A stretch of 46,016 bases of DNA. Source: a virus. The stretch is taken from the IMG/VR virus record IMGVR_UViG_3300024520_000129, positions 1 to 46,016 of that record, one strand, 5' to 3'. This document shows, one piece after another, positions 802-46,016 of the stretch; position 1 is the first letter of the stretch, and each line of letters opens with the position of its first letter. Position numbers and translations under genes: made by a program. The notes under the pieces are model-generated. The model saw nothing but the letters and a program-made list of their open reading frames with translations. It had not been told where the DNA came from and searched no databases.

Positions 802-836
802 CATCTCTGAGGAGATGGTGGGTACTTACTTAGTAG
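802..836 (+). promoter_or_regulatory. Hairpin and variant of the recurring GGGTACTT motif
   Basis: A 6-bp hairpin (CATCTC-TGAG-GAGATG, 802-817) is followed at 820 by GGGTACTTACTTAGTAG, a variant of the motif seen at 3427, 17406, 21096, 26074 and 28005. It lies upstream of the lysis/terminase genes and is a candidate phage promoter for them. Confidence 0.4.
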
Positions 837-864
837 GGGGGTAAGCGAGCGCACTTACAGCGAG

Positions 865-3424: not shown

Positions 3425-3426
3425 TT

Positions 3427-3443
3427 GGGTACTTCTAATACAG
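3427..3443 (+). promoter_or_regulatory. Candidate phage promoter (GGGTACTTCTAATACAG)
   Basis: This copy of the recurring motif lies in the TerL-portal gap. Its GGGTACTTCT half nearly pairs with AGGAGTACCC at 3456-3465, which contains the portal ribosome site, so the transcript could fold and affect portal translation. Confidence 0.55.
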
Positions 3444-6086: not shown

Positions 6087-6615
6087 AGGCCCAGGAGGGC
6101 GTATACCAAACCAGGGGAACGGTCCTGCAGCTAAGGGTGTGGGTAAGAACGCTAAGCGCCATGACCTGGAACGTCAGGATGTGCCCCCATTGCATGACTC
6201 TGACCTCCAACAGGGCGATGTACAGGCGTTGGAGCAGGGGCAGCGTATAGCTCCAGTGCGTAGTCAGGCACCAGCCGTGCCTCAGCAGGCTGGTGGGAGC
6301 GCACGTCAGGACGTTGGTGGGGGTGCGCAGCAACCAGCGCCCATGGACATCATCAACTCACGCCTCGGTAACACTATGGCTACGCAGGGAACTGAGCGCA
6401 CGTTCGACCCTGCTAAGGCTAGGCTCGCTGACAAGTGGGCTGGGTTCTACATGCAACTATCACAACATCCGAACGCTTCCCCTGTCCTTAAGGCCCAGGC
6501 ACGACAGCAGGCTAACGACCTCCAAGCCACCCGTACTGCACCGAAGAGTCAGATCATGGACCTCGGTGTAGCTGATGGACTGATTGAAGATACGCTCAAC
6601 TCCGAAGGGTTCTAA
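6076..6615 (+). CDS. Putative virion protein, disordered N-terminus
   Basis: This 179-residue protein starts with TTG 6076; the canonical ribosome site GGAGGT (6062-6067) fixes this choice. The first ~105 residues are Gly/Gln/Pro/Ala-rich and probably disordered, and a helical C-terminus follows (ADKWAGFYMQLSQHP..., KAQARQQANDLQATR). The position just before the giant virion gene suggests a virion or assembly partner. It ends in TAATGG. Confidence 0.55.
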   Translation: MTARGPGGRIPNQGNGPAAKGVGKNAKRHDLERQDVPPLHDSDLQQGDVQALEQGQRIAPVRSQAPAVPQQAGGSARQDVGGGAQQPAPMDIINSRLGNTMATQGTERTFDPAKARLADKWAGFYMQLSQHPNASPVLKAQARQQANDLQATRTAPKSQIMDLGVADGLIEDTLNSEGF

Positions 6616-9600: not shown

Positions 9601-12600
9601 CGTACGCTAGTGTGGTGCGTGCAGGGAACGAGACAGTGGATGGTATGGGTATCATCTCTCGTGCTGCTGCTGCCACCTCCAGGTGGCATAGCCTGATCCA
9701 TAAGCAGTTCAGCATTCAGGCGTTGTCCTTGCGTGCTAGCTCGTGGATGCAGAAGGTCGCTCTCCTTGAGGAGCCTATTCGTGCTGCGATCGCTGGTATC
9801 CCCAGCTTGTTCAGCAACCCTGTGGGTGCTGTGCGTGACATCTTCGATGGTCACTTCGTACGTGTGGTCCAACACAACGCTGACCTGATTCCCGAGATCG
9901 CCATTCAGGCACGTGACACGGTGCGTGCTGCAGTGTATAGGCGAGTAGATGATGTCACCCCGTCAGCGCTGCTGGATGCAGCGATCGACGAGATGGGTGA
10001 CCTTGGCCCCCTCGGTAAGCTCAAGAGGGGCAAGCAGGCTATGGTCGAGGAGGATGTGATCAGAGCCTTGGACGAGGAGGTAGCGCAGGCTCTCACTGAC
10101 GCTGACTTCACGGTAGGTGGTAGGGTCACGAGCTTCACTGACGACGTGGACCGTGTGGTACGTGCTGTCGATAGGGTCAGGAACCAACGTGCCTCCCGTA
10201 TCTTCATTGACGAGAACGGTGTCAACACCATGGGCTTGGAAGACATCCTGAACATCGGCTACGCTGACGTAGCAGGGGACGTGGCCCACTCCATTTACAA
10301 CCGTACGATCTTCGATACGTTCACTGACAGAGTAGACACGACCCGAGGGTACGTAGCTATGGGTAAGAGTGGGGTTGCCCTGAACAACTGGTCCCTCGCT
10401 AAAGGCAGTGACCTGGTGCGTGAGGCAAACGACCCGTACTTCAGGATCGCAGTTAAGCAGATGCTTGATAACCAGAGGAAACTCAGGCCCGAGAACATCC
10501 GTTCAATCCTTGCTAGGTCTCAGTGGCGTAAGATGAGAGACACGATCAAGAGGGTCGCTGATAGCACAGATGGCATCAACCCCCTGAACGACGTGGAGTT
10601 GGCTACCTGGTACTTCACTGAGTTCATGCCTGACGTGGTAGACTCGAAGCTGCGTGGCTTCTGGATTGACGAAGCGACAGGTGAGGTGGACCATGCGCTC
10701 CGTACCCAGGTGCTCCAAGGTGTCATGGATAGGCAGATCAAGGTAGGCAACGTGAAGATACCGTTGCACGCTGCTGATGAGCAGGCCACGGTCAACAGAC
10801 TCCGTGACCACGTGCAAGCTGGCTACGATGAGGGGAAGCAGTGGACCTACATGGACCAGTCAGTGGTGGGCAACATCGCCCCCGCTAGGGGCTGGTCACC
10901 TGGTGCGAACAAACCCAATTGGGGTGTGTATGACGCTGTGCGTGGAGTGCAGGACTTCGTGAACACACCCTTGCATAAGGTCATTGAGATCGCTGGTGCC
11001 CGTGCCACGCAGAACATCACTCGTCAGCCTGGGTGGCGTCGAGTGTACGGTGACTACCGTGCCCACTACGAGAACCTCGGTTGGGGTGCTGACAAAGCTG
11101 ACGCTGCTGCACGTATGCAGGCTACGAAGACGATCAACACGCTCATGTACAATGCGCAGGAGATGAGCAACTGGCGTCACACGTTCAACAACATCGTACC
11201 GTTCGGTGCAGCCATGGTCGAGGTGATGGAGGTGTGGATGAAGAACCTGCCACGTGACAACGTGGGAGGGGGAGGCCTCACAGGATGGGCTGTAGGCTCC
11301 GTAGCCCTGCAACGCAAGTACCAGTACGCCATACAAGGTTTAGAGGCGTTAGGATTGATTAGGCGCGATCCAGAGACAGGCCAGGCCATAGTGTCGTTCG
11401 ATTCGGAGGGGACTTGGGCCTCGAAGGGACTGAACGCTGTGTTTGGGGCACCTCAGCGCCTCGTACGGACGATCGCTAGCATCGCTGACGTGGATATCGA
11501 ACCGTACCAGCGTATCGAGTTCCTCCTCGGTACCCCATTCCAACCCATCAACCCTGACCAGAACGGACTGATGTCCGTGTCCTCGTTCGCTATTGGTGTG
11601 AACCCCGTACAGTCGTGGGCTGCGAACACCATGTTCGCCAACCAGTTCGGACAGTTCAGGTCCGAAGAGTTCGAGGGTGGCAGCATCGCTGACCTCGCTG
11701 AGTCCATGGACATAGAGCTACAAGACTTCATCCCTCAGTTCCTCGCTGTCCCTGAGAACAGGCAGGCACTGATCGACGCTGGTAAGGACCCACGTGACTT
11801 CAATGATCTCGCTAACGCTGAGGACGAGGCGACCCTCGCCCTCCTCACCAAGGCACTCGACGAGTCAGTGGTCCTCCCCAAGGGCACGTACTTCAAGCCG
11901 AACTCGGGTGCCTTCTACGAGTTTGCCCATGATTACATCTTCCCGTACGGTGCACCTGCTTCCTTCTCGGAAGCGATCGGGTCGTTCCAACCAGGCGCTT
12001 GGCAGCACATGCTGCGTAGCTTGGAGATGTCCATATTCACAGACGAAGACGGTGTGGGGCAGGCACCCATACAAGACTGGTTCATGGGGCCAGTGTCAGC
12101 TTACCGTACGAACGATGCCATCATCGAGGGACTGATGATGGGCAACATCGCTCATGGGACCGTGGACAAGTTCATGGAACTACAAAACCAGGCGAGCTTC
12201 ATCCGAGGTAAGGCTCTCACTGAGGGCTTGGCTTACATGGAGGCTGGTGACGGTAGCGCTGATAGGTTCAGGTGGGAAGAGGATGTGACCCCTGAAGAGT
12301 TCGAGCAGCAGGTCGAGTGGCAGATACTGTTGGAGGGTGACGATGACACGATCGGGTTGAGCGAACAGATCGCTAACCTGGAAGAGTCAGCGTTCATGTA
12401 CGCCACGAACTACGCTATCGCTAGTGGGTTCTCCCGTGGTCTCACCATGTTCGGGCTGCCTATCAGCCCTCAGGTGTACACGGAGAGCGAGCTTGAGGTA
12501 CAGAAGTTCTGGGGTACGAAGGAGTTGGGTGACCAGATATTCCAGGGGCATGGCCCTGAAGCGTACGCTCGGTGGCTTGCCCTGGTAGGTGAGGGTGGCA

Positions 12601-14171
12601 TAGCTAAGTTCGCACCTGTGCTCCGTGACTTCCTCACACCTCAGTCATGGGAGCCTGGTGACTCACCGAACGAAGCGTGGGGTTTGGCTCCAAGCTCAGA
12701 TGTGAAGCGTAACTTCCTGGCGCAGCCAGGGAACGCTGACCTCCACCTGTACCTCACCCCCTCGAAGGTGTACCCGACAGGGTACGTGCCCACTGAGACA
12801 ATCGAGGAGTTCTTCCAAGAGGTGGAGCGTGGTGGCGTCGAGTTCGCTGACCCGAGAGTGTTCCTCATGCGTGCGTACACGAGTGCACTGTCGTTTGAGC
12901 AGGGCGCAGAGCGCACGACCTTCTTCCAGAAGGGTGGGAACGATCCTGTGACCTACGCTCTGGAACATTGGGACGAGTACATGACCATGATCACCACACA
13001 AATGAACGCTCGTGACTACCTGGACTTCGTGGACGCTGAAGTGTTCGACGGTGTGTACAATGAGGCACGTCAGACAGCGAAGGAGAGCGTGAAGAAAGAC
13101 GCTCACGAGGTGGTCCGTGAGCAGCAACAGTCGCAACGTAAACGTAACCTCAAGACCATAGGCCAACTGATCAACGATATCGACGGGTACGGGTTAGACC
13201 CTGAGGACGCTGCTGAGATGCGCTCAGCTTTGTTCGGGTTGCAGAACATCATCCAAGACCTCGCTGATGTGGGCGCCAGCCAAGACCAGTTCTTCTCCAG
13301 GTCCCCTGAGGAGAAGGCATTGGACACGTGGTTCGATGCGATCCTGAACCCTCACTCGAACAACCTGACAGCCCTCTACGAGATCGCAGGTAAGGCTGAC
13401 ACCAAGTATGAGCGTAGCCTAGCGTACGACAACATCAGGTTCTACGAGAACACCATGTTCAAGACCAGTCCCCTCATCGACGGTAGGCCCGTCCCGAACC
13501 CGTATGCGTTCCGTCTCAGTCGCCTCGTGTCCGAGGCTAAAGAGAACGGGGTCCATGGGTCCAGGTTAGAAAGCGCAGCAGTACGTCAGCTAGCGCTCAA
13601 GCCCTCATGGTTGAGTCGTTCAGACGTGGAAGTGTTGAAGGCTTACGTGGACCTGAACGGGGGTGACGGTAGGGTACTTCTAGAGTACATGCCCGATGGG
13701 GATGAAGAGTGGGCTGACTACAACGTGTTCAACAGTGTGTCGAACCGTATCGAGGCACTGCGCATCGAGGGAGCCATCTCTGATAGTGAAGCAACGAAGG
13801 CCAAGAACGCATTAGAAGAGGAGTTCCACACGAACTTGAGAACAGTGAACAGGGGAGCAGAGGTAGACTTCCAAGACCTGACCCCAGCGATGATGCTGAA
13901 CGAGTTCGGCACCCTCCACTCCACACTGATAGCCCCCACGGATTGGGCGCAGAACTTCATAGCTGAGTCGCAAGCCATGCGAGACGCAGGCATCTCAGGG
14001 ATTGATGACCTGTGGCGCACAGAGTATTGGCCAGCCATACGAGGGTACCTCGACAACAACCCTGTCGCTAACCAAGAGTTCAAGAGGATCGGTGGGATCA
14101 TGTTCAAAGAGTCGAACGATCGGTTGACGATCGCAAGACGGTTCTTCCTAGGGAAGTTTGGTAAGGAGTAA
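6615..14171 (+). CDS. Giant internal virion / DNA-ejection protein (2518 aa)
   Basis: A single uninterrupted frame fills one sixth of the genome. The sequence is mostly helical and Ala/Asp/Arg-rich, with no signal peptide. Around residues 1500-1550 there is a segment with FNNIVPFGAAMVEVMEVW, resembling the 'FPFG' regions of large internal virion proteins in marine podoviruses. A hydrophobic stretch also occurs near 415-440. Residues around 600-730 have a different, beta-containing character ending in GIDYLQFGPTRIVTP. I see no lysozyme, protease or RNA polymerase active site I would defend. By size, position and coupling to two other large virion genes, it most likely sits in the head and is ejected with the DNA. 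Confidence 0.7.
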   Translation: MGNPNVEQGTTPEGGARSTNTPEGQIQAITEALKVVHDGIPEPELESDFDPLNLRQGVKIDSSGHEYFDGQFSHSFEQQARPYYLQQGKIPAFDLPSQNFPPVVSQHLYNEELSDQYLSALDDLEADGLVPDYQGLNDVRFATHLDLLAMNTGVSTANREVWEANHALWEDRTAELEAFNQEVLKNRARLEKNQVYLSFVRDFEPLLGPEYMDAITASFARNNDEQGIGEVFSWAAIQIMEDPDMLKTDEGKARFAFSVISASGRSSQKYQIKTGQLEPDPPPGLWDVVKKSAGSALGVADLFLFEELIPGSGFNIKGGGVFEGPLTALGYLGGTPGTEQLFQGLGTLWAPIDEHVTKPFREGISHSFARGSFFGWEPWGMEMNPYRAYLTPGRNLALTLNMDPGTRAFDNFSGAIDLSTYIVADPVFVLAPAAKAWSAAARIPLEAGTAAARNALINKAIVPYFGKSILPTGWTGMKGPLTRAFYVRFAKTAEELSHTKRATALFTDILQHAQRGKIEDLTTKYRQLIDSPNLVNAFEQAESLEDVRQMWVSALTGENMGPRGEELLRARANHNEAAAAAATKQALENGTLGALDVDGVRYGQTKFDGLTGLVDNGDGTYAAKALNGDGGDVLVWNAPATMARTDTLRKLRAAIGGERVPPGVRKLLDAAEKKVKGAQVSDIWASMHGNAQNRVLEWMAGHGIDYLQFGPTRIVTPRGRTKLTRAIDKVTDGKEAVLGGVDDAYRKADDALRRVGADPDELSWIISLPKPVKKLPDLIKFLPKTTRQGVRARQAKFTRQAENFPQGVSLHDTKLGVKQIGDIGRRLGLEPDEIGRLQREYRTSATSGRFEAVRSVRAQMVDSIRHWRMKHGIGGLYVDEGEGLYGKFPDGSSIARGESKTRVGVMVNLPFEPTQLAAEIPFFRPDFYTELDRLRRARFLSRLPFGSKIVEGFGFTKFGAAKKNRAKLVARWQNMIENRTGLDLSGFEQDDIYNMAYASVVRAGNETVDGMGIISRAAAATSRWHSLIHKQFSIQALSLRASSWMQKVALLEEPIRAAIAGIPSLFSNPVGAVRDIFDGHFVRVVQHNADLIPEIAIQARDTVRAAVYRRVDDVTPSALLDAAIDEMGDLGPLGKLKRGKQAMVEEDVIRALDEEVAQALTDADFTVGGRVTSFTDDVDRVVRAVDRVRNQRASRIFIDENGVNTMGLEDILNIGYADVAGDVAHSIYNRTIFDTFTDRVDTTRGYVAMGKSGVALNNWSLAKGSDLVREANDPYFRIAVKQMLDNQRKLRPENIRSILARSQWRKMRDTIKRVADSTDGINPLNDVELATWYFTEFMPDVVDSKLRGFWIDEATGEVDHALRTQVLQGVMDRQIKVGNVKIPLHAADEQATVNRLRDHVQAGYDEGKQWTYMDQSVVGNIAPARGWSPGANKPNWGVYDAVRGVQDFVNTPLHKVIEIAGARATQNITRQPGWRRVYGDYRAHYENLGWGADKADAAARMQATKTINTLMYNAQEMSNWRHTFNNIVPFGAAMVEVMEVWMKNLPRDNVGGGGLTGWAVGSVALQRKYQYAIQGLEALGLIRRDPETGQAIVSFDSEGTWASKGLNAVFGAPQRLVRTIASIADVDIEPYQRIEFLLGTPFQPINPDQNGLMSVSSFAIGVNPVQSWAANTMFANQFGQFRSEEFEGGSIADLAESMDIELQDFIPQFLAVPENRQALIDAGKDPRDFNDLANAEDEATLALLTKALDESVVLPKGTYFKPNSGAFYEFAHDYIFPYGAPASFSEAIGSFQPGAWQHMLRSLEMSIFTDEDGVGQAPIQDWFMGPVSAYRTNDAIIEGLMMGNIAHGTVDKFMELQNQASFIRGKALTEGLAYMEAGDGSADRFRWEEDVTPEEFEQQVEWQILLEGDDDTIGLSEQIANLEESAFMYATNYAIASGFSRGLTMFGLPISPQVYTESELEVQKFWGTKELGDQIFQGHGPEAYARWLALVGEGGIAKFAPVLRDFLTPQSWEPGDSPNEAWGLAPSSDVKRNFLAQPGNADLHLYLTPSKVYPTGYVPTETIEEFFQEVERGGVEFADPRVFLMRAYTSALSFEQGAERTTFFQKGGNDPVTYALEHWDEYMTMITTQMNARDYLDFVDAEVFDGVYNEARQTAKESVKKDAHEVVREQQQSQRKRNLKTIGQLINDIDGYGLDPEDAAEMRSALFGLQNIIQDLADVGASQDQFFSRSPEEKALDTWFDAILNPHSNNLTALYEIAGKADTKYERSLAYDNIRFYENTMFKTSPLIDGRPVPNPYAFRLSRLVSEAKENGVHGSRLESAAVRQLALKPSWLSRSDVEVLKAYVDLNGGDGRVLLEYMPDGDEEWADYNVFNSVSNRIEALRIEGAISDSEATKAKNALEEEFHTNLRTVNRGAEVDFQDLTPAMMLNEFGTLHSTLIAPTDWAQNFIAESQAMRDAGISGIDDLWRTEYWPAIRGYLDNNPVANQEFKRIGGIMFKESNDRLTIARRFFLGKFGKE

Positions 14172-17395: not shown

Positions 17396-17422
17396 ATGTC
17401 AAAGTGGGTACTTCTACTATAG
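17396..17422 (+). promoter_or_regulatory. Candidate promoter overlapping a possible 8-codon leader peptide
   Basis: GGGTACTTCTACTATAG at 17406-17422 is the cleanest copy of the recurring motif and has a T7-like ACTATAGG end. The same bases are read as the tiny frame MSKWVLLL-stop (ATG 17396), preceded by a strong AAAGGAG site. AGGAGTACCC at 17386-17395 is a near-perfect inverted partner of GGGTACTTCT. The site is about 150 bases before the scaffold start. Confidence 0.5.
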
Positions 17423-19416: not shown

Positions 19417-20307
19417 TTAGAGATAATGTTCGTCGTACCAACGTACTGTACTGATGACCGTGGACCACTCAAGGAATGGGGTGAACCCCAACACTTTACC
19501 TTGCTGCTCTAACCGTGCCTCCGTCATCGTAGCCCCGAAGCCATCATCGGTTTCGCCAGGACGCATGGGCAGGAACTCCATTTCTAGTGGCACTCCTGCG
19601 AATGCGCTGATACGTTCAGCTAGCTTACGTACGCTCATGTTGCCATTCATTGCTGCACCGTAGAAGTGGGGAGCTTCGATGCTCGCATGGTCTAAGGCTG
19701 AGACCATGACCCTCGCTATGTCTCGTGCGTGCACGAGGTTGATCATCTGGTCACCTTCCCCGTACACGGGGAGAGGTTTCCCTTCGAGCGCAGCGAGAGC
19801 GAACGTGGGGACTATCTTTTGGGGGTGTCCTGGTCCGTGCGCTTGCCTCGGCCCGAAGGCGTTAAACGCTTGGACAGTAGCGAGACGAAGACCCTTGTGT
19901 TCAGCAAGGCCTCTCGCAAGACGTACGCCCGCACCCCTCGTAGTCTCATACGGATTCGTCCAAACGTGTGGTTGTTCAATCGTGACATACGGTACCTCCA
20001 GTCGTCGGGCTGCTTCAGCCACATTGTATTGTCCTTTGACATTCACGTCGATAGCTGCCTCGACATTGTCGAATAGTTCGTGCGTACCGAGGAGGCCAGC
20101 GAGGTTGATGACGCCCGTGATCTCGGTGCTCTCACCTAGGGCCATAGACATCTCGATGTTCTCAGGTCCCCAGCGCACGTCGATGTACTCGATGTGATCG
20201 TCCCTCGGGTAGGCGTTGTCCATCGGGATGACAGACTTACCTTGCTCCATCAGCACGTCCACTACGTGGGACCCGATGAACCCTGCTGCGCCTACGACTA
20301 CGATCAT
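19417..20307 (-). CDS. NAD-dependent epimerase/dehydratase (extended SDR)
   Basis: This 296-residue protein has a Rossmann nucleotide-binding start (GAAGFIGSH, the GxxGxxG pattern at 6-12) and a family-typical middle (INLAGLLGTHELFDN, NAFGPRQAHGPGHPQKIVPTF). These enzymes interconvert nucleotide sugars. The catalytic Tyr-x3-Lys is altered: Tyr120 is followed by Arg124 (PYETTR) rather than Lys, so activity may be changed. ATG 20307 overlaps the upstream glycosyltransferase stop (ATGA), so the two form one operon. They probably make or attach a sugar to the host envelope, phage DNA or virion. Confidence 0.85.
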   Translation of the reverse strand: MIVVVGAAGFIGSHVVDVLMEQGKSVIPMDNAYPRDDHIEYIDVRWGPENIEMSMALGESTEITGVINLAGLLGTHELFDNVEAAIDVNVKGQYNVAEAARRLEVPYVTIEQPHVWTNPYETTRGAGVRLARGLAEHKGLRLATVQAFNAFGPRQAHGPGHPQKIVPTFALAALEGKPLPVYGEGDQMINLVHARDIARVMVSALDHASIEAPHFYGAAMNGNMSVRKLAERISAFAGVPLEMEFLPMRPGETDDGFGATMTEARLEQQGKVLGFTPFLEWSTVISTVRWYDEHYL

Positions 20308-21074
20308 GGCCTTGTGTCCTTGTTGTCAGGGTTAGCGTACCACACTTGTGTTGCCATTTCGTGTGTGATCTCAAACTTCTTGATGTGCCCACACTTCACG
20401 TTAGTGTCGATGAGGGGAGTCTCCCCTGTGGCTGCTTTCGCTCGTTCGAAGAACTCCATGTCGGGTCCCTTCGGGGTGTTCCCTGCTCCTTGTTCTAGTT
20501 CGTCGATCCAGATGTTGTTGTACTGTGGCTCGTACATGGCGTGCATGGCTTCGAGCACTGATCGGTGGATCAGGATACAGAAGAACCCTGTTGCGTCAGC
20601 TTCCACGTACCGTTGCCACGGTGGTTCGTTGATGATGTACGTGTCCCCAATCGCACCACCTGACTCTTCGATGTGTGGGTCATCGTCTAGGGCTTCCATG
20701 ACAATGGAAGCTAGGAACGGTGGGTTCGATTCGGGCTTGTAGATGTAACCGAGGCCACCTACGAGTTTGCGTTTCTTCGTTTCGGCTGTGTGTAGTAGCG
20801 TCTTGAGCGCATCTTTGGGGAGTACCATGTCAGCGTCCACCATCCAGAACCATTCGAACATGGGTGGGGACTGCATGAAGTCTTTGATCACCTGGTTCCT
20901 GGCACGCTGAATGCGTGCCCCTCCTCCACCAGTGAACCCTTGGAGTCTACGTTCTGCGATGACGTTGCTCGCCAAGCTGATGGCAAACTTGTCTTCGACT
21001 TGCGTTGGTGAGACAAACCCTGCCATCACAAGACCTTTGGTCTTGGAAGGTCGCCTCTTCTTAGCTCTGCTCAT
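20304..21074 (-). CDS. Glycosyltransferase, GT-A type
   Basis: ATG 21074 gives 256 residues. The open frame extends 54 codons further, but that would run across the promoter-like motif at 21096 and the next rightward gene. MVDADMVLP (Asp80-x-Asp82) is a DxD motif of GT-A fold transferases, which binds the metal and nucleotide sugar. Preceding RARNQVIKDFM and following ATGFFCILIHRSVLEAM fit the family. The N-terminus is basic. It is transcribed against all structural genes and couples to the epimerase downstream, which suggests an acquired cargo cassette. Confidence 0.75.
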   Translation of the reverse strand: MSRAKKRRPSKTKGLVMAGFVSPTQVEDKFAISLASNVIAERRLQGFTGGGGARIQRARNQVIKDFMQSPPMFEWFWMVDADMVLPKDALKTLLHTAETKKRKLVGGLGYIYKPESNPPFLASIVMEALDDDPHIEESGGAIGDTYIINEPPWQRYVEADATGFFCILIHRSVLEAMHAMYEPQYNNIWIDELEQGAGNTPKGPDMEFFERAKAATGETPLIDTNVKCGHIKKFEITHEMATQVWYANPDNKDTRP

Positions 21075-21095
21075 TAGTGGAGATGATAGTAGGTA

Positions 21096-21112
21096 GGGTA
21101 CTTTTAGTATAG
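21096..21112 (+). promoter_or_regulatory. Candidate phage promoter (GGGTACTTTTAGTATAG)
   Basis: This copy of the motif ends one base before ATG 21114. There is no ribosome site in the gap, so a transcript starting at its final G would be practically leaderless. It restarts rightward transcription after the leftward cargo pair. Confidence 0.55.
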
Positions 21113-21113
21113 C

Positions 21114-21422
21114 ATGCCAACATTTACACCGACGACCTATGATGGTCCTAGTCGCATGGCTGGACCTGAGCGAGATCATCCCCAGCAAGGCTCTGACTTC
21201 TGGAGATTCTATCGTCAACTCCCGATTGGGTACCATGTACTCATCACTAGTGGGGTTGCCACAGCCAGTCCTGGTGTTCAGTCAGTGGACACTGAGGATT
21301 TAGATAACGCTGACTCAGGTAGTGGGGAAGGGGGTAAGGCCTGGTTCCGTGGAGGCCTTACGTACACAGTAACAGCAGCCGAGGATACGATCTTGAGCGC
21401 TGCAGGATACACGGTAACTTAA
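21114..21422 (+). CDS. Small virion-associated protein (unknown)
   Basis: This 102-residue protein has a polar, Pro/Gly-rich N-terminus (MPTFTPTTYDGPSRMAGPERD) and a beta-type C-terminus (AWFRGGLTYTVTAAEDTILSAAGYTVT). No family is recognised. It is the first gene after the candidate promoter and has no Shine-Dalgarno sequence. Confidence 0.5.
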   Translation: MPTFTPTTYDGPSRMAGPERDHPQQGSDFWRFYRQLPIGYHVLITSGVATASPGVQSVDTEDLDNADSGSGEGGKAWFRGGLTYTVTAAEDTILSAAGYTVT

Positions 21423-26073: not shown

Positions 26074-26088
26074 AGGTACTTATAGGGT
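26074..26088 (+). promoter_or_regulatory. Candidate phage promoter directly before the endolysin ATG
   Basis: AGGTACTTATAGGGT is a variant copy of the recurring motif and ends exactly at the start codon of the amidase. No Shine-Dalgarno sequence fits between them, so a leaderless or near-leaderless transcript is expected. Confidence 0.45.
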
Positions 26089-26721
26089 ATGGAGTTTGTT
26101 AGCCCAACAGAATGGGGAGCCGAGGTCAACTATGACGACTGGACAGATCACCAGTACGTCAAAGACCTGATCGCAGTTCATTGGGGAGGTCCACCTCCTC
26201 AGAACTTTGACGCTGGCCCCGATCGTGAAATGGAAATCCTCCGTGCTTACGAGAGCTACCACCTGCACACCAAAGGATGGCGAGGCATTGCCTACGGTTA
26301 TGCTATCGGTGCGTCGGGTACGGTATATAGGCTACGTGGCCGTAACAATTACGGGGCACATCAGGGTGACCAGGATGGTGATGGCATCTCCAACAACAAG
26401 GAGGTAATCCCCTTGCTCTTCATCATGGGCCAAGGGCAGACAGCCACACCTATCATGTGGGAGAAAGCGAAGCTGCTACGCAAGTGGCTCCAAACTCAGA
26501 CGTGGACACGTGCTGACCTCCCCGTTACGGGACATCGTGTGATCCAACCTAAACCTACCTCGTGTCCTGGTGACGAGAACATGGGCATCATCCAATCCCT
26601 GGATTGGGATGATGTAGATACGTACGTGCCTATGCAGTTGTTCAAAGAGTTCGAGAAGCGCACTGAGGATAGGATCACGAGACTCGAAACATTCGACGAG
26701 CAGATCAGAGGCCTAGACTAA
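26089..26721 (+). CDS. Endolysin, N-acetylmuramoyl-L-alanine amidase (Amidase_2/PGRP)
   Basis: This 210-residue protein carries the full zinc amidase signature: His31 (IAVHWGG), His149 (TGHRVIQPKPTS) and Cys159 (SCPGD). The 'HTKGWRGIAYGYAIGASGTVYRLRGR' region is typical of the fold. It cuts the bond between muramic acid and the stem peptide. The last ~35 residues form a charged helix, possibly for oligomerisation, and no separate wall-binding domain is obvious. It is far from the putative holin (1177). Confidence 0.88.
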   Translation: MEFVSPTEWGAEVNYDDWTDHQYVKDLIAVHWGGPPPQNFDAGPDREMEILRAYESYHLHTKGWRGIAYGYAIGASGTVYRLRGRNNYGAHQGDQDGDGISNNKEVIPLLFIMGQGQTATPIMWEKAKLLRKWLQTQTWTRADLPVTGHRVIQPKPTSCPGDENMGIIQSLDWDDVDTYVPMQLFKEFEKRTEDRITRLETFDEQIRGLD

Positions 26722-28001: not shown

Positions 28002-28004
28002 GGT

Positions 28005-28019
28005 GGGTACTTCTATAGT
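28005..28019 (+). promoter_or_regulatory. Candidate phage promoter directly before ATG 28020
   Basis: GGGTACTTCTATAGT contains the exact 10-base core of the motif and abuts the ATG. No ribosome site is present. This is the clearest leaderless arrangement of the set. Confidence 0.55.
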
Positions 28020-28313
28020 ATGAGCAATCAAGCACCAGCCATTCCACTCACCGTCGTTGCAGCTACGAGCAACGCTAACATTACCAAGTTCCTAGGCTTC
28101 TCCATCTACGAGGACGCTGCGAGCACAGCGCAGTGGACCTTCAGACATGGGTCAGCTACGGGTACCATCCTCGCCAGCGTGAAGCTGGCTGCGAGCGAGT
28201 CAGCCACTGTCATGTTCCCCTTCCCGATAGCCACACCTGAAGGGGTGTGGGTCGTCGAGGTATCAGGTAGCATCACGGGTACCGTGTACGCTGCAGGCCC
28301 AGCCATAACCTAG
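28020..28313 (+). CDS. Small beta-rich virion protein
   Basis: This 97-residue protein has alternating hydrophobic residues throughout (GTILASVKLAASESATVMFPFPIATPEGVWVVEVSGSITGTVYAAG), consistent with a single beta-sandwich. Similar small proteins occur as decoration or trimeric appendage proteins. It starts directly at the promoter-like motif. Confidence 0.5.
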   Translation: MSNQAPAIPLTVVAATSNANITKFLGFSIYEDAASTAQWTFRHGSATGTILASVKLAASESATVMFPFPIATPEGVWVVEVSGSITGTVYAAGPAIT

Positions 28314-35278: not shown

Positions 35279-36155
35279 GCGTTGGGTCAGCGATCCATTC
35301 ATACCTCGATCGGTTCAGATCAAGGGTTACCTGAGCGACCTCTGCATCTGCAGAGTCCACCTTCCATATGGGACACACGCTGCGTCCCACACACCAGTCA
35401 CACTTCCACGAGGGGATGGCCACGATCGGCTCATCCTTCTTCGTACGCTGCGAGGAGGCGATCATCCACTCCACCTCGTTCGGTGCGTACTCGTCTACCT
35501 GCTGCACCTTGCGATGCTCTAGGTGGTAGAAGTATCCCCATCCTCTGTCCTTGCATGCGCAGAAGCGCTCACCCATACCCTCCAACCCATACCTGTACGT
35601 CTGGAGTTGGAGTGGGTCACTGCGCCTGGTCCTGCCTGTCTTCCAGTCCACGACGATGGTACCCTTGCACCTATTGCACATGAACAGTGCGTCAGCCTGA
35701 GTCTTGATACCTGCCACCCCTTCGGGTGTCTGGTCTGGACGGAGGGTGATGAAGGTCTCCATACGTGGGGGCCACACGACCCACGGTATGATGCGTGCGT
35801 TCTTGTCAGCGATCACGCCCATCTGCCAGTCATGGTAGAAGTTACTGATCAAGCGCTTGCTGATCTCTTCCAACTCTTCCTTCGGACGGTTGGGTGACCA
35901 GAGCATAGGCTTGATGTTCTCGTACTCTGCGATGCGTGAGGCTACGTTCTTCCATGCACGGTTACGTGCACGCCTAAGGGTGAGGTTCTCTTCGATCACC
36001 TCCTCGATCGTGGTATGCAACGCAGTACCTAGCTCGAACCACGAAGCTGTGTTCTCCTCGATACCTTGGTTCGCTATGTGCCACTGCGCAGGGCAGTCAG
36101 CGATGCTGCGATCAGATGATCTTGTGTACAGTGGGATCGGTAACTTCGTGCTCAT
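35274..36155 (-). CDS. Cas4/RecB-like PD-(D/E)XK exonuclease with Fe-S cluster
   Basis: This 293-residue protein has nuclease residues His47 (GTALHTTIEE), Asp155 (KTQADALF) and Asp170-x-Lys172 (VVDWKTG), followed by 'QLQTYRYGL' (QxxxY). Four cysteines, Cys21 and Cys252/255/261 (KCDWCVGRSVCPIW), are placed as the 4Fe-4S cluster of Cas4/AddB-type nucleases. It probably processes DNA ends in phage recombination or replication. AAAGGA precedes ATG 36155. Confidence 0.85.
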   Translation of the reverse strand: MSTKLPIPLYTRSSDRSIADCPAQWHIANQGIEENTASWFELGTALHTTIEEVIEENLTLRRARNRAWKNVASRIAEYENIKPMLWSPNRPKEELEEISKRLISNFYHDWQMGVIADKNARIIPWVVWPPRMETFITLRPDQTPEGVAGIKTQADALFMCNRCKGTIVVDWKTGRTRRSDPLQLQTYRYGLEGMGERFCACKDRGWGYFYHLEHRKVQQVDEYAPNEVEWMIASSQRTKKDEPIVAIPSWKCDWCVGRSVCPIWKVDSADAEVAQVTLDLNRSRYEWIADPTL

Positions 36156-36399
36156 CAGCTATCCTTTCTATCTTGGCTGCCTCTGCCTCGTACCATGGCT
36201 GGTCACTCAGATCCACAGGTAGGGGCACCCCTTCGGGTAGCCCACCGTAGTAGCGCTGGTAGTTGCCGACCATAGCGTACATGTACTCGTAGCACTTGAA
36301 GCTGCATGTCTCGCCTGCCTCTGCCACTGGCAGGTCACAACCTGCGCACCTAGCTATTGGACCACCGTCATAGTGCATCCAGCCTTCATGTTTGCTCAC
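36112..36399 (-). CDS. Small zinc-finger protein
   Basis: This 95-residue protein starts at GTG 36399. It has Cys-x2-Cys (RCAGCDLPV) and Cys-x3-Cys (TCSFKCYEY), likely one zinc site, then an acidic helix (DQPWYEAEAAKIERIADEHE). It overlaps both neighbours. Function unknown; a DNA or protein adaptor is possible. Confidence 0.6.
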   Translation of the reverse strand: MSKHEGWMHYDGGPIARCAGCDLPVAEAGETCSFKCYEYMYAMVGNYQRYYGGLPEGVPLPVDLSDQPWYEAEAAKIERIADEHEVTDPTVHKII

Positions 36400-36667
36400 C
36401 TTCCTGCCTCTCTTTCTCTCTCGTATCGGAGGGCCTGACCCACCAATGCTCTTGAACTTTCAAGCATTGTAGCAGGTCACCCTCTGGTTCACTAGCCCAA
36501 CACCTGTGACGTGTGATCCCATTCTTACAGATGGGACACCGTGCCTTCACGGACACGGGGTCCATACCTGGACGTTCGATCGGACTACTCACTACCTTCA
36601 CCCCCTCCCAATCGTCGTCGTCGGTACGGAGGTGATCGACGAGCCAATGCCAGGCTCGACGCCACAC
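36386..36667 (-). CDS. Small zinc-ribbon protein
   Basis: This 93-residue protein starts at GTG 36667, overlapping the TAG of the sigma-like gene by one base (TAGTG). Cys-x2-Cys (ARCPICKNG) and two later cysteines (HRCWA, LQCLK) suggest a zinc ribbon. Direct coupling to the sigma-like gene hints at a partner or regulator. Confidence 0.55.
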   Translation of the reverse strand: MWRRAWHWLVDHLRTDDDDWEGVKVVSSPIERPGMDPVSVKARCPICKNGITRHRCWASEPEGDLLQCLKVQEHWWVRPSDTREKERQEGEQT

Positions 36668-37230
36668 TACATGCCTTCACTTATCATAGTATCCAGTGTA
36701 AACAAGTCTTCCTGTGTTTCCTTATCTAAGTCATCCCAGATGATAGTGTCCGACATCCACTGTAAGTAGAGGGCACGGACCCGAGGCTCAACCGATGCGA
36801 GCATGTTGTCCACCCACTCAGCTACTGCACTGTCCTCAACCCACGCATACCCATCCTCGATGACACCATACCTATCAAGCACACTCTCACCTACGTCATC
36901 GTCCTGTTGTAAGGGCTGGTTTGCGAGTAACTCGGGAGTCCCCTTGCCTTTGATGTGTTTCCATGGTGGTCTGATCTGGTAGTCCATGCGCTGATACTCT
37001 TGGATATACTTTCTTACACGCCACTTAGCGTAGCCAATGAACGTGGTGGTGGGGTGGGCCACAGGATCATAGCGTACTGCTGCGTCAACGAGTGCGAGAT
37101 ACCCTTGTTGCACCAGGTCAGCTTGCAGTTCCTTGTTCCCTTGCTGCCACTCACGAGCGACAAGCGCTCGCACATAGGGCATGTGATCGGTGACGAGACG
37201 CTGCTGCGCATCAGTCAGTTTGCCTGTCAT
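36667..37230 (-). CDS. Sigma-70-like factor A
   Basis: This 187-residue protein has a textbook sigma region 2 (about 12-80): 'HMPYVRALVAREW', 'DLVQQGYLALVDAAVRYDP' and 'TTFIGYAKWRVRKYIQEYQ'. These correspond to core-RNA-polymerase binding and -10 recognition. The C-terminal part is acidic and helical and lacks a clear region 4 helix-turn-helix, so -35 recognition may be absent. It would redirect host RNA polymerase to phage promoters, possibly the GGGTACTTCT motif. Confidence 0.75.
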   Translation of the reverse strand: MTGKLTDAQQRLVTDHMPYVRALVAREWQQGNKELQADLVQQGYLALVDAAVRYDPVAHPTTTFIGYAKWRVRKYIQEYQRMDYQIRPPWKHIKGKGTPELLANQPLQQDDDVGESVLDRYGVIEDGYAWVEDSAVAEWVDNMLASVEPRVRALYLQWMSDTIIWDDLDKETQEDLFTLDTMISEGM

Positions 37231-37594
37231 CGTATGCTCTCTGAGTTTGGGTGAAGTGGAACAGCGTGAAGCAATGCCACGCTGCGTGCATCAGGTGTGA
37301 TTCACCTGACTCGGGATCAATGTCCTCACCCTGCCAGAAGGACCAGAGGTGACGCATCAGTGCACTGTATGACAGTGACCAGTCGTACCCCTTACGGTAG
37401 TTGCCTCGTTCGTACTTGTCTGCGCCCATGGCGTACACTCTAGCGAGCGCACGTATGGCTTCGGTTGGGATATCATCGTACTGTTCAGGCTTGGTGCCCT
37501 TCTCTCCCCCTGTGGGGGAGGTGGTGCGAATTTCGTGCGAGATGCTCCCGATGAACTCGTCCATGATTGCATCTTGAAATGGGAGCTTAGCCAT
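37211..37594 (-). CDS. dATP/dGTP pyrophosphohydrolase-like protein (DUF5664 type)
   Basis: The 127-residue sequence 'DDIPTEAIRALARVYAMGADKYERGNYRKGYDWSLSYSALMRHLWSFWQGEDIDPESGESHLMHAAWHCFTL' matches the phage family annotated as dATP/dGTP diphosphohydrolase N-terminal (PF18909/DUF5664). Members are thought to trim nucleotide pools. No PurZ-type gene for modified adenine is seen here. It overlaps the sigma-like gene. Confidence 0.7.
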   Translation of the reverse strand: MAKLPFQDAIMDEFIGSISHEIRTTSPTGGEKGTKPEQYDDIPTEAIRALARVYAMGADKYERGNYRKGYDWSLSYSALMRHLWSFWQGEDIDPESGESHLMHAAWHCFTLFHFTQTQRAYDDRQTD

Positions 37595-38165
37595 GGTCGG
37601 TCATCCCTTCCACCTGCTCAACGAACGTGCTCCACTCAGTGATACGACCGAGGTCGGTGTCACCCTGATTGTGGGGCGCATCGAACAGGTACGCTGCTAT
37701 CCCTGCCTCTTGCATCTGACGTACGTACTCGGGACTGTCATCCAACCCGAAGCTCGCACCCATGATGCCCTTGTTCCCCGTGAACAAGAGGCCACGGTAA
37801 GGTATCGCTGCCTCACGTAACCAGTCCACGGTGTTGTCAATAATTTTTGAGTACAGTCCGAACTTGCTGAGCCTGTTGGTTGCGAGTGTGATGTGGAACT
37901 CCATGTCACTGAGTTGCCAGAGGGCGTCACGTGCGCCCTCGATGATGGGACCTTGACGATAGATCACATCATCCTCAATACCCATGCGCCACAGCCTATC
38001 GAACTGACCCTTCGGGATATCCCAGTCCTCCCAGACTTCCCACGACTGGTAGTCTGCGATGTCTACGTCTACCCCTTGGTAGTGCAGGTACCCAGCGACT
38101 GTGGCTATCCAGTCATACACTGTGTTGTCGAGATCAACTATGATCTCGGGTCTTCCGTTGATCAC
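37587..38165 (-). CDS. HAD-family 5'-nucleotidase-like phosphatase
   Basis: GTG 38165 gives 192 residues; it overlaps the upstream stop (GTGA) and has GGAGG four bases upstream. Motif I is DLDNT (Asp11, Asp13, Thr15). 'LATNR' and 'FTGNKGIMGASFGLDDSPE' supply the later HAD motifs. It resembles phage deoxyribonucleotidases of the NT5C type, which dephosphorylate nucleotides, and it sits beside another nucleotide-pool gene. Confidence 0.78.
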   Translation of the reverse strand: MINGRPEIIVDLDNTVYDWIATVAGYLHYQGVDVDIADYQSWEVWEDWDIPKGQFDRLWRMGIEDDVIYRQGPIIEGARDALWQLSDMEFHITLATNRLSKFGLYSKIIDNTVDWLREAAIPYRGLLFTGNKGIMGASFGLDDSPEYVRQMQEAGIAAYLFDAPHNQGDTDLGRITEWSTFVEQVEGMTDHG

Positions 38166-38482
38166 CAATCCTCCATCTCTAGGGCATCGTCGAGCCTGAA
38201 CACGACGAGCCAACGGTTACGGTCCTCACGCATGACGAGGGCATCAGCACCCTCCTCAATTGCTTGGTCCATGTGCTTGTACAAGGTACGCATGCCCTTC
38301 TCGAAGCGCTTGACTTCGAGAGTACGGGCTAGAAACTTAAGCCTCTTGTACTTGCGCACCACATCGACGCCCCTCTTACGAGGGCGTGACACCTTGATCC
38401 CATTGACCAAGCGTGCCACCTCATACTCACCTTGCTTGCCTCGGCGCTGTGACTTAGCGCCCAAGGTAACTGGTCTCGTCAC
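38162..38482 (-). CDS. Hjc-like Holliday-junction resolvase / PD-(D/E)XK nuclease
   Basis: The pattern 'RRGKQGEYEVARLVNG...RKRGVDVVRKYKRLKFLARTLEVKRFEKG...LYKHMDQAIEEGADALVMREDRNRWLVVF' is that of archaeal-type resolvases found in phages (Glu, Asp, Glu-x-Lys). It would cut branched DNA before packaging. GTG 38482 is given; TTG 38464 is an alternative, and neither has a good ribosome site, so translation is probably coupled to the upstream gene. Confidence 0.7.
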   Translation of the reverse strand: MTRPVTLGAKSQRRGKQGEYEVARLVNGIKVSRPRKRGVDVVRKYKRLKFLARTLEVKRFEKGMRTLYKHMDQAIEEGADALVMREDRNRWLVVFRLDDALEMEDW

Positions 38483-38780
38483 CAACAGGACCAGAGTCGT
38501 ACGGTTCAACCGAGTCGTACTCGTCCTTGTCCTCGTACTCCTCGTCGTCTACGTCCTCGACATAGGCATCCACGAGCAAGGAGAAGATGATGTTGATGGC
38601 CTCATCAACTGCATTCTGACGAGCCAGTTGAGACTGGCTCACTAGTGAGCCTCGCCTAGCGCTCGCCTCATTCATCTCTTCGATGACCTCGGCTAAGTCC
38701 TCAAGCGTAGGTGGTACTTCACTAACTACTACCTCTTCGTCAGCCCCCTCTAGGGGCTGACTCTTACTACTAGTAACCAT
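38454..38780 (-). CDS. Acidic hypothetical protein
   Basis: This 108-residue protein has an acidic helical start (PPTLEDLAEVIEEMNEASARR). A hydrophobic helix (AINIIFSLLVDAY) and a strongly acidic tail (VEDVDDEEYEDKDEYD) follow. Such acidic tails can mimic DNA or bind basic host proteins, but this is speculative. AAAGGAAG precedes ATG 38780. Confidence 0.6.
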   Translation of the reverse strand: MVTSSKSQPLEGADEEVVVSEVPPTLEDLAEVIEEMNEASARRGSLVSQSQLARQNAVDEAINIIFSLLVDAYVEDVDDEEYEDKDEYDSVEPYDSGPVGDETSYLGR

Positions 38781-38807
38781 AGTTACTTCCTTTCTTTCAG
38801 AGCTATG

Positions 38808-39491
38808 TTAGTACGGTCTTTCAATATCGTTCATCTCCACTGTCACCAAGTCCCTGATCGCCTTGATCCTGGCGAACACGGTAACGGTGGAGACACCCCA
38901 ATACTTGGCTAGCCTGGGTCCAGCACCACGCTCAGCACCCACGTGCAACCAGTCCCTCACCCACTGAGCCATCGGCTCATCGAGGCGACTGATCACCTCA
39001 TCCAGTGCCTGTGTCAGAGCGAGGCGATGGACTACCTCGCCATAGCTATCAGTCGGGTCAGGTATGACATCCTCCACGTGACGCACCTTGTTTCCCGACC
39101 CACGTAGTGGTCGGGACAGTGAGTCAACGAAGGGCATGTCTGACACTGGACGTTGGGCTGTCACCACACTGAAGGGTGCGCTGATACCAACCCACCCTAG
39201 CGTACGGTCCACGTCCTTCTGCATCATGGCACGCATCCAGTGATGAGTGAATGTCCCGATAGTCCCCTGTTCAGGGTCCCAATCCTTCACCTCGAACGCA
39301 TGCAAGAACCCCACTGCTGCTGCCTGCTCGTAGTCCTTGGTCAGGTGCTGACGACCGAGGAACGCAGCGTGTGCGTTCACTGCCTCGATCAGCCTGCCTT
39401 GGTTAGCTTCGAGCATGACAGCAGGGCTGCGTGTCTCTTGCCACAAGCGCACGTTCTCCTCGTGCGCAGCCACATCTCTACTCTTGACCAT
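38808..39491 (-). CDS. Sigma-70-like factor B
   Basis: ATG 39491 gives 227 residues. Region 2 lies at about 36-95 ('DYEQAAAVGFLHAFEVKDWDPEQGTIGTFTHHWMRAMMQKDV'), with 'ISAPFSV' after it as in many sigma factors. The C-terminal helix-turn-helix (about 191-213, PRLAKYWGVSTVTVFARIKAI) fits region 4. Unlike factor A it keeps both DNA-reading domains. It may direct host RNA polymerase to phage late promoters. Confidence 0.75.
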   Translation of the reverse strand: MVKSRDVAAHEENVRLWQETRSPAVMLEANQGRLIEAVNAHAAFLGRQHLTKDYEQAAAVGFLHAFEVKDWDPEQGTIGTFTHHWMRAMMQKDVDRTLGWVGISAPFSVVTAQRPVSDMPFVDSLSRPLRGSGNKVRHVEDVIPDPTDSYGEVVHRLALTQALDEVISRLDEPMAQWVRDWLHVGAERGAGPRLAKYWGVSTVTVFARIKAIRDLVTVEMNDIERPY

Positions 39492-43047: not shown

Positions 43048-43316
43048 TAGTATGGCCTTCCTTCGTACTCGCCATCAATCAGATGGCGCCACTGACTCTC
43101 AGTGTAGCGTGCGCCTCGTATGCGCACACCCTTGAACTTCTCATCCTCTTGCGCATACATGACATGATCCAGCTTATCATCCACCCTACGGAGGTTGACT
43201 CGCACCTCACCCCATGTACGAGGACCAGACGCTAGCTCTGCCTTACGCACGGCCCATATGTGGTCATCGTACTCGATGACATCACCACTACGTAGTACCC
43301 ACGCTGCGAGCTTCAT
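43047..43316 (-). CDS. Small beta-barrel-like protein (89 aa)
   Basis: ATG 43316 (MKLAAWVLRSGDVIEYDDHIWAVRKAEL) has GGAG upstream. The N-terminal 'GDVIEYDDHIWAVRKAE...VRVNLR' resembles small SH3-like barrels that bind nucleic acid in phages. A basic C-terminus follows (VRIRGARYTESQWRHL). No firm family assignment. Confidence 0.55.
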   Translation of the reverse strand: MKLAAWVLRSGDVIEYDDHIWAVRKAELASGPRTWGEVRVNLRRVDDKLDHVMYAQEDEKFKGVRIRGARYTESQWRHLIDGEYEGRPY

Positions 43317-43624
43317 CGTAAACGCTCCCACCTAACGAAGTCAGGCTCAGCATCACTCACATGTCCGAGTGAAGGGAAGTGACCATACTCGTTGGTCACA
43401 TCTACGAGGATACTATCCTCACCAAACTGGTGAGCGTAGAGTGCGAGGGCATTCACCCACTCACTATGGTCATGGTACCCAAGAACCTCGATGACCGAGG
43501 CTGGTTCAGTCGCACCCTCGAACACACCAGTAGCCTCGTATATGGTGTATGCCTGCAAGCGCAGGTTCAAGTGGTCTATTAGTTGGCGATGATTCATGTT
43601 CGCCACGTACGCTCGTACCTTCAT
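43313..43624 (-). CDS. Small hypothetical protein (103 aa)
   Basis: A helical start (MNHRQLIDHLNLRLQAYTIYEA) is followed by mixed sequence with strand-like VIEVLGYHD and SILVDVTNEYG. GGAG precedes ATG 43624. It overlaps both neighbours by four bases (ATGA type). Function unknown. Confidence 0.6.
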   Translation of the reverse strand: MKVRAYVANMNHRQLIDHLNLRLQAYTIYEATGVFEGATEPASVIEVLGYHDHSEWVNALALYAHQFGEDSILVDVTNEYGHFPSLGHVSDAEPDFVRWERLR

Positions 43625-44908: not shown

Positions 44909-45379
44909 CGTATGTCCTCCGTGTACTACGCACTCTGTATGAGTGCGCACTAAGGGAGGACCGACTCCCTTTACACGCACAAGGTGTCAATCTCCCCGTA
45001 CGTGAGAACCAGCTTCTCGGTCCTTCACACACGAAGACTGGCTCGGGCGAGTGGCAGTCCTCCCTTGCGAGAAACCATTCCCTCGTGTGCACTAGATCAC
45101 TCCAAACCCTACCTCGGCCAGTCCTTCGTGCGATCTTGGGGCTTGGTCCCACGTGGGAGCAGTGTCCTTACGCACTCGGGAGAGGAGCTATGTCGGCAAG
45201 CCTCGGTCCCTCTCACCTTCACGGGGGAGAACCTCAACCGTCACCAAAACCATACACCATCTCGGCCCAATCGTCAAGCCCTCCGTCCCGTGTGGTCTTC
45301 GAAGAAGACCGTGCGCCACGGAGTCGAGCACACTGTAACGTACGGGCATAAGGCGCACATCACAAGACCGAGACACGAA
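44909..45379 (-). promoter_or_regulatory. Hairpin-rich untranslated leader of the leftward genes
   Basis: No convincing gene is seen in these 470 bases. It holds several perfect inverted repeats: CGCACTC-n5-GAGTGCG (44929-44947), AAGGGAG-n6-CTCCCTT (44952-44971), GAGAA-n5-TTCTC (45004-45018), the palindrome TCCCACGTGGGA (45147-45158) and GGTCTTC-GAA-GAAGACC (45294-45310). Early promoters and the terminase recognition site are expected here, between the first leftward gene and the right terminal repeat. No clear -35/-10 pair can be assigned. Confidence 0.45.
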
Positions 45380-45560
45380 TCCAAACACCAATCCAACACC
45401 CCAACGTGCGCACCAGGCGAGAGTCCAACGACAGCCCACCCTGCTCAAGTACACGCACGCAGGCACACACACACACATCACGTGCGCACACACGTGAACC
45501 TTAGACACGTGTCCAAGATGTGATCCACAAGCTACGCCCGAAGTCAAGACCCTTTCATTA

Positions 45561-45576
45561 GGGTCTTTCGACCCTA
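45561..45576 (+). promoter_or_regulatory. Leader hairpin in the right repeat with an alternative partner
   Basis: AGGGTCTTTCGACCCT forms a 6-bp stem with a TTTC loop. Just upstream, GACCCT (45549-45554) can pair with the same AGGGTC instead, so two exclusive hairpins are possible. The left copy has only the downstream hairpin. Confidence 0.4.
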
Positions 45577-45640
45577 TTTACGGCACGTCACGTAGTCCAT
45601 GCTGGTGGCGTCCCACTTGAAGGGGACGGAAAGGGGCGAC

Positions 45641-45826
45641 ATGCCCAACAAGTACACGGTCATTACGACCGAGGGAAAGCGCAAGAGCTTTCCGACTCTG
45701 AATAAGGCGAGGGCCTATCGGCACTCCATCAAGGACTTCGATCGGGGGACTGCTCTGGTCGATGCGACTGATTGGATGAATCAGCCCGTTAAGGTGCGCA
45801 AGGTTCGCAAGAGCAAGAAGGCCTAA
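45641..45826 (+). CDS. Small basic protein encoded in the terminal repeat (right copy)
   Basis: It encodes exactly the same 61 residues as 262-447. The codon differences are all silent and include a Ser AGC to TCC and an Arg CGT to AGG, each needing two base changes. The ribosome region differs (GGAAAGGGG here), and the residues upstream of the shared ATG are not conserved, which fixes the start. Strong selection on the protein is evident. Confidence 0.85.
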   Translation: MPNKYTVITTEGKRKSFPTLNKARAYRHSIKDFDRGTALVDATDWMNQPVKVRKVRKSKKA

Positions 45827-45845
45827 CGCACCACACGTAAGAGTG

Positions 45846-45869
45846 AAGCCCCGCCACACGGCGGGGCTT
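45846..45869 (+). terminator. Intrinsic terminator after the right copy
   Basis: The stem AAGCCCCGCC / GGCGGGGCTT with an ACAC loop matches the left terminator. One G-C pair is swapped for C-G and there is one loop change, so the structure is preserved although the bases changed. Confidence 0.75.
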
Positions 45870-46016
45870 TACTTATGCCATGGACGGGAGGCATTCAACC
45901 GAGGCGCCAACATGAAGAGCAGAGAGGCAGCCGAACGCCACACGTGAGAGAGAGGGTACAGGGTAGGGCACGGGCGACCCCCCACCCCTTCAGGTAATAT
46001 GATGTTTGTGTTTGTG

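Follow-up and report, generated by a model that had tools for sequence, protein, structure and literature searches.

What would a small phage do with two different sigma-70-like factors? The question is raised by IMG/VR virus record IMGVR_UViG_3300024520_000129, analysed here over its whole length (positions 1 to 46,016; "the window"), in which a first-pass annotation had noted two such genes, here called A (36667-37230) and B (38808-39491). Both proved to be intact open reading frames (ORFs) at these coordinates, lying on the minus strand in a tightly packed leftward operon. The observation of two sigma-like genes is thereby confirmed, and the interpretation first attached to it is partly supported. 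In our preferred reading, to which we give a probability of about 0.45, A would be a late sigma factor resembling gp55 of phage T4, acting at a set of candidate late promoters perhaps with the help of a sliding clamp, and B would be a second, conventional sigma factor.

Gene A comprises the following features:

36667-37230, minus strand: gene A, 187 aa, a sigma-70 region 2 protein without the region 4 helix-turn-helix (Pfam, TIGR02937, AlphaFold2)
36991-37197, minus strand: sigma region 2 of gene A, residues 12-80 (Pfam match)

The A protein matched Pfam Sigma70_r2 (PF04542) above the curated cut-off (E=2.5e-5) and NCBIfam TIGR02937 at 4e-9 over profile positions 1-122 of 165, with a score (36.3 bits) that falls short of the curated 42.9 of that model. 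Matches to the FliA, RpoH and SigB models of NCBIfam ranged from 1e-8 to 4e-5, and the top hits of a tblastn search of plasmids were annotated sigma-70/sigma-32 genes (best 2e-5). A core-binding segment (DLVQQGYLALVDAAVRYDP) and a -10 segment (TFIGYAKWRVRKYIQEY) are evident in the sequence. The structure models of A and B were of the single-sequence type only; in the AlphaFold2 model of A, residues 1-80 reached a pLDDT of about 75, while the remainder had no confident model. These 80 residues were paired by Foldseek with the SigE N-domain, SigA domain 2 and FliA at a probability of 0.97-1.0 (root-mean-square deviation about 2.3-3.5 Å, E-values only 0.08-0.3). That A is a region-2 protein is certain. 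Its TIGR02937 match ends at position 121-122 of 165, i.e. at the start of region 4, with about 35 residues left, and no helix-turn-helix was found in any frame of the downstream DNA, which rules out one hidden behind A by a frameshift.

Gene B is less easily recognised:

38808-39491, minus strand: gene B, 227 aa, weakly recognisable as sigma-70-like, with parts resembling regions 2 and 4 (PHROG 351, NCBIfam)
38838-38978, minus strand: region 4-like helix-turn-helix of B, residues 172-218 (TIGR03001, E=0.08)

The gene starts with an ATG at 39491, preceded by GGAAGG. Its product matched PHROG 351 (sigma) with E=0.0086 across 38,880 families, the alignment being colinear over residues 10-214 and running through region 2, the linker and region 4; weak matches were obtained with the NCBIfam RpoH model in region 2 (residues 56-94, E=0.13) and with TIGR03001 in region 4. 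Sigma chains made up almost the whole of the 33 top Foldseek matches of B, none of them individually significant, and the single match in a tblastn search of plasmids (E 0.5) was an annotated sigma factor. As judged from these comparisons, B is probably, though not certainly, a sigma factor. A and B showed no kinship when compared with each other. The original claim that both proteins contain sigma region 2 is upheld for A, with weak matches pointing the same way for B, and the claim that only B keeps region 4 agrees with where the A and B matches end. Structure prediction gave a fold resembling sigma domain 2 for residues 1-80 of A, and for B a poor model whose top, non-significant matches were sigma chains.

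Which promoters might such factors read? Six sites on the plus strand are candidates:

819-837, plus strand: candidate late promoter TGGGTACTTACTTAGTAGG, at the left end ahead of the late operon
3426-3443, plus strand: candidate late promoter TGGGTACTTCTAATACAG, ahead of the portal gene (ATG 3469, AGGAG upstream)
17405-17422, plus strand: candidate late promoter TGGGTACTTCTACTATAG, ahead of a gene (17508) adjoining the capsid gene
21095-21112, plus strand: candidate late promoter AGGGTACTTTTAGTATAG, two bases before the ATG of ORF 21114-21422
26074-26091, plus strand: candidate late promoter AGGTACTTATAGGGTATG, a near copy; the ATG at 26089 lies at offset 15, a leaderless arrangement
28004-28022, plus strand: candidate late promoter TGGGTACTTCTATAGTATG; the ATG at 28020 lies at offset 15, a leaderless arrangement

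These sites form a coherent set, GGG/AGG-TACTT-n-TA, and lie mostly in gaps ahead of late genes; ORF 21114-21422 has a homologue in a relative. The sequence GGGTACTT occurs in 8 exact copies, all on the plus (late) strand, against 1.1 expected on both strands. The non-coding part of the late arm, only 1256 bases, holds four copies (0.04 expected; 0 of 3000 simulations), and coding copies are in mild excess (3 vs 0.67 expected, P 0.016). With up to 3 mismatches, the motif 18-mer is found 5 times (0.11 expected). The ATG offset, counted from the first base of the motif, is 15 at 26089 and 28020, and 18 at 21114. If transcription starts at the A of the ATG at 26089 and 28020, TACTTn would lie at -12 to -7, the place of a -10 element, and the transcripts would be of the leaderless kind frequently met in actinobacteria (PMC3898074, PMC3160421). 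Between the motif and the portal gene there is a leader containing AGGAG. A conserved -35 hexamer was not found upstream of the sites.

Among 211 other fetched loci, the motif (TGGGTACTTCTA) occurred only in L132, an incomplete copy of this virus, and no similar late motif stood out in the Streptomyces phages of the Beephvirinae or in two other relatives. The promoter-like motif noted in the first-pass annotation is real and phage-specific, and the idea of a division between early and late control becomes sharper because the motif is confined to the late strand. Taken together, these data suggest that the GGGTACTTnTA-type motif is a candidate single-element late promoter. Since the motif (…CTACTATAG) resembles T7-type promoters, a T7-like polymerase was also considered, and was rejected for want of a fitting ORF; the sole ORF long enough (2518 aa) gave no polymerase match in Pfam, PHROG or PDB, and no phage RNA polymerase was recognised, as had been stated before. 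A weak host-type promoter-like site (TTGACG-17-TATGGT; 45249-45277, minus strand) lies ahead of the entire leftward operon, and such sites are not above chance in this region.

As the C-terminus of T4 gp55 binds the sliding clamp, we searched A for a clamp motif, a directed but post hoc test, and found one near the protein end:

36700-36714, minus strand: QEDLF, residues 173-177 of A, a beta-clamp-binding-like motif (pattern scan)

This is the sole match to Q.[SD][LM][FLY] in 14,381 aa of window proteins, and no second clamp motif was present in the window gene products checked. In shuffled versions of A the pattern appeared anywhere in 0.2% (0.002) and within the last 30 residues in 0.03% (0.0003). 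Clamp-binding motifs follow the published consensus QL(S/D)LF, and QADMF is among the variants found in nature; the Q, the L/M and the F weigh most, and position 2 tolerates change (PMC11139829). Among sigma-K proteins, the sigma type of related phages (see below), the motif was found in 0 of 55 members, and in an enlarged set 1 of 100 carried QRDLL, located away from the protein end. The tail of A may thus be a handle for the host beta sliding clamp, as predicted from its sequence.

In the mechanism that we propose, host RNA polymerase would begin with the right arm, transcribed leftward from about 45 to 29.5 kb and encoding B and then A. Region 2 of A would dock on the clamp helices of the host core RNA polymerase, as T4 gp55 does, and A would then read the single extended -10-like element (GGG-TACTTn, placed about 6-9 bases upstream of the start site) ahead of the structural and lysis genes of the plus strand; as A has no region 4, no -35 element would be needed. 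Through the QEDLF of its C-terminal tail, A may also anchor the holoenzyme to the beta sliding clamp of the host, and by means of such a tether the late genes would be read best from replicating DNA, as occurs with gp55/gp33/gp45 in T4. B, with its regions 2 and 4, would serve a different promoter class, namely middle genes and perhaps the operon that encodes it, or, alternatively, would replace the host sigma before A does. The sequence itself shows which domains A has, that the motif is strand-biased and sits at late genes, that no -35 is conserved and that A carries the tail motif; we infer the use of the motif by A, the clamp contact, the role of B and the timing.

The best-known parallel, T4 gp55, is a sigma-2 homologue with a short hydrophobic/acidic C-terminal clamp epitope; gp55 and gp33 together have been termed a split sigma, and there is no -35 recognition (PMC2988020, PMC7892883). 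Like gp55, A has sigma-2 homology without region 4 and ends in a predicted clamp-binding-like segment, and the proposed late promoters would resemble those of the gp55/gp33/gp45 system in having a single element and no -35, in serving late genes and in using the host core RNA polymerase. Unlike in T4, no gp33 or own clamp was recognised, the motif of A fits the bacterial beta clamp and not gp45, the genome is podovirus-like and of 46 kb, GGGTACTTnTA is not the T4 late element, and a second sigma is present. Nor does A have detectable sequence kinship with gp55 (7d7c_F, the gp55 chain, appeared only at a Foldseek E of 0.75), and T4-like phages were absent from its list of phage tblastn matches. 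A would thus be a functional parallel of gp55 that stands, by sequence, outside the gp55 family.

Two Cys-containing proteins encoded next to A are candidate partners:

36386-36667, minus strand: 93-aa protein with one CxxC pair, its start overlapping the stop of A
36112-36399, minus strand: 95-aa Cys-containing protein (CxxC-x9-C-x3-C)

The TAG stop of A and the GTG of the next gene share base 36667 (TAGTG), in agreement with the annotation. The suggestion that this "zinc-ribbon" gene encodes an anti-sigma factor fared less well. Neither protein matched a family (Pfam and PHROG; for 36386-36667 also NCBIfam), and the HxxxCxxC signature of zinc anti-sigma factors was seen by eye in neither: they read VKARCPIC (36386-36667) and PIARCAGC (36112-36399), with no H four residues ahead of the first Cys. 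With neither signature nor family match, an anti-sigma role of the 36386 protein is not supported.

Several points weigh against a gp55-like role of A. That the motif is read by A, and not by B, is our assumption. The motif was chosen after looking, and the position weight matrix scores refer to the sites from which the matrix was built. The E at position 2 of QEDLF stands where natural motifs have an aliphatic residue (PMC11139829), and the searches for A and B brought up no homologue in which conservation of the tail motif could be seen. No gp33-like flap-binding partner was identified, the neighbours at 36386 and 36112 being without family match, and the sigma status of B is weak, all its matches lying above E 0.005. 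The complete picture, i.e. a sigma-2-only A bound to the host clamp and reading single-element promoters, forming an independently evolved replication-coupled late switch with leaderless mRNAs and a second unrelated sigma, is doubtful as a whole.

Unlikely, too, is a two-part sigma in which A provides region 2 and B provides region 4 on the beta flap. A has no region 4 and B has one, both are encoded in the same operon, and split sigmas are known (PMC2988020; SigO/RsoA named in PMC8103513), the SigO-RsoA pair of Bacillus subtilis illustrating that regions 2 and 4 may reside on separate proteins. However, B, unlike its counterpart in that system, also retains a region 2-like part (residues 56-94; colinear PHROG alignment), the genes A and B are not adjacent, and the late motif offers no conserved -35 to the region 4 of B.

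It is quite improbable that the roles are reversed, with B as the late promoter-reading sigma and A as a decoy or blocker on the sigma-2 site of the core, shutting off the host. B has both DNA-reading parts, the linker and C-terminus of A are untypical, and displacement of the host sigma by single-domain proteins is a known phage tactic; yet the region 2.3-2.4 segment of A (TFIGYAKWRVRKYIQEYQ), which a mere blocker would not need, is well kept, and the late motif suits a -10-only reader.

We consider it equally improbable that B is an unrelated helical DNA-binding protein, leaving A as the sole phage sigma. B has no Pfam match (region 4 families included), none of its matches passes E 0.005, and its model, with a pLDDT of 38, is too poor for use alone. 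Nevertheless, three libraries and Foldseek point to sigma, with regions 2 and 4 in order, whereas reversed B and four shuffled versions matched no sigma family.

A further reading, in which GGGTACTTnTA is not a promoter but an operator, a stoperator-like site or an RNA-level signal, is very unlikely. Two of the six sites are associated with short inverted repeats containing AGTACCC (3461, 17389), and the repressor sites of mycobacteriophage L5 are likewise repeated and oriented, but the other four sites have no inverted copy, the ATG offset is constant at the leaderless-like genes, the sites precede separate late genes, and the proteins scanned included none recognisable as a repressor or integrase. 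Least probable of all is that A is a decaying, functionless remnant of an ordinary sigma that lost its helix-turn-helix by mutation: the relatives' sigma is full-length and A ends short of this motif, but A falls outside the relatives' sigma family, its frame is intact and tightly overlapped with both neighbours, and no other frame retains a helix-turn-helix.

The first-pass annotation had proposed to look for conservation of the A/B pair in related phages. It was not found; the relatives carry a single, different sigma. Most of the longer ones have one detectable sigma of the "sigma-K" type (about 100 distinct members were collected). In one set of 20 relative records, 19 had a single TIGR02937 match and none had two; in a further set, one record (G046) had a second, weak match (E 0.003). 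Neither A nor B gave a positive score against a profile of 55-100 sigma-K members (hmmsearch --max), blastp, hhalign and an iterated profile led us to reject direct kinship with sigma-K, and the sigma-K family is missing from the window. Searches for homologues of A and B in viral and genome contigs, phages, plasmids and about 280 fetched loci revealed only generic sigma similarity. Because B itself escapes TIGR02937 in the window, a second gene of the B type may have gone unnoticed in the relatives. Thus, as far as can be seen from sequence, the pair is special to this virus branch; its lack of conservation calls for caution but does not refute the reading, given that the virus is isolated and that the search would miss B-type proteins.

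The sigma-K genes of related phages (FlowerPower, Manuel, Zeigle, Immanuel3, Abafar) lie in the same early/replication region as A and B; unlike the A/B pair, the Beephvirinae sigma-K is encoded by one gene per genome, has a recognisable region 4 and lacks the clamp motif. Sigma-K, as identified by sequence, is a large phage sigma family, with 367 confirmed Beephvirinae-type stretches among viral contigs (e.g. L133-L212), as a rule the only sigma detected in a record, and in many cases close to the primase gene. More than one phage sigma is found in SPO1, a large Bacillus phage, in which gp28 and gp33/gp34 act successively; the present virus is similar in having more than one sigma-like protein, possibly divided by stage, and has no known sequence kinship with the SPO1 factors.

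By its gene content the virus is a distant relative of the Streptomyces Beephvirinae, isolated on its own branch. Its capsid protein is 32-41% identical to theirs, and the nearest capsid relative, L132 aside, is 44-47% identical (among the 80 kept from the collection scan). As in Beephvirinae, the plus strand carries terminase, portal, giant virion protein, capsid and tail genes, in that order, and the minus strand then carries a split primase, a DnaB-like helicase and a PD-(D/E)XK nuclease. Because of these relatives, the host is probably an actinobacterium.

Several other features of the 46,016-base record were observed. Direct repeats are present at both ends (1-637 and 45380-46016) and are imperfect. 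Phage terminal repeats are identical as a rule; these are only about 90% identical overall, with the first 120 and the last 37 bases perfect and about 50-75% identity around 121-300, and each codes for a nearly identical small Lys-rich protein (205-447, 45599-45826). The 2518-aa protein (6615-14171), which takes the place of one of about 1600 aa in Beephvirinae, has almost no detectable homologues (one 133-aa match, 29% identity) and is probably an ejected or internal virion protein. Two opposite-strand genes lie within the late arm at 19417-21236; the first begins like a nucleotide-sugar epimerase (MIVVVGAAGFIGSHVVD) and the second has a weak homologue in another locus (L005). Near the right end lies a possible anti-restriction gene (43313-43624) with weak similarity to S-adenosylmethionine lyases (E 0.007, short of the cut-off). 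Beside the sigma genes (37211-38213) are a dATP/dGTP diphosphohydrolase-like gene (PF18909, 9e-33) and then a 5'-nucleotidase-like gene (NT5C); no PurZ-like adenylosuccinate synthetase was found in the window, and neither did a PF02467 search of the window reveal a WhiB-like regulator, of which Beephvirinae have one at this place.

Phage sigmas, multi-sigma phages and a sigma-2-only late factor are each already known; what is new is their combination in a small phage with likely promoters. On this branch, two unrelated sigma-like proteins have taken the place of the conserved sigma that the relatives carry. Reviewers call clamp-driven late transcription peculiar to the T4 family. If the proposed role of A is true, such a scheme can arise independently, with the host clamp, in a small 46-kb genome, and this phage would provide a compact system for asking what the minimal needs of a sigma factor are.

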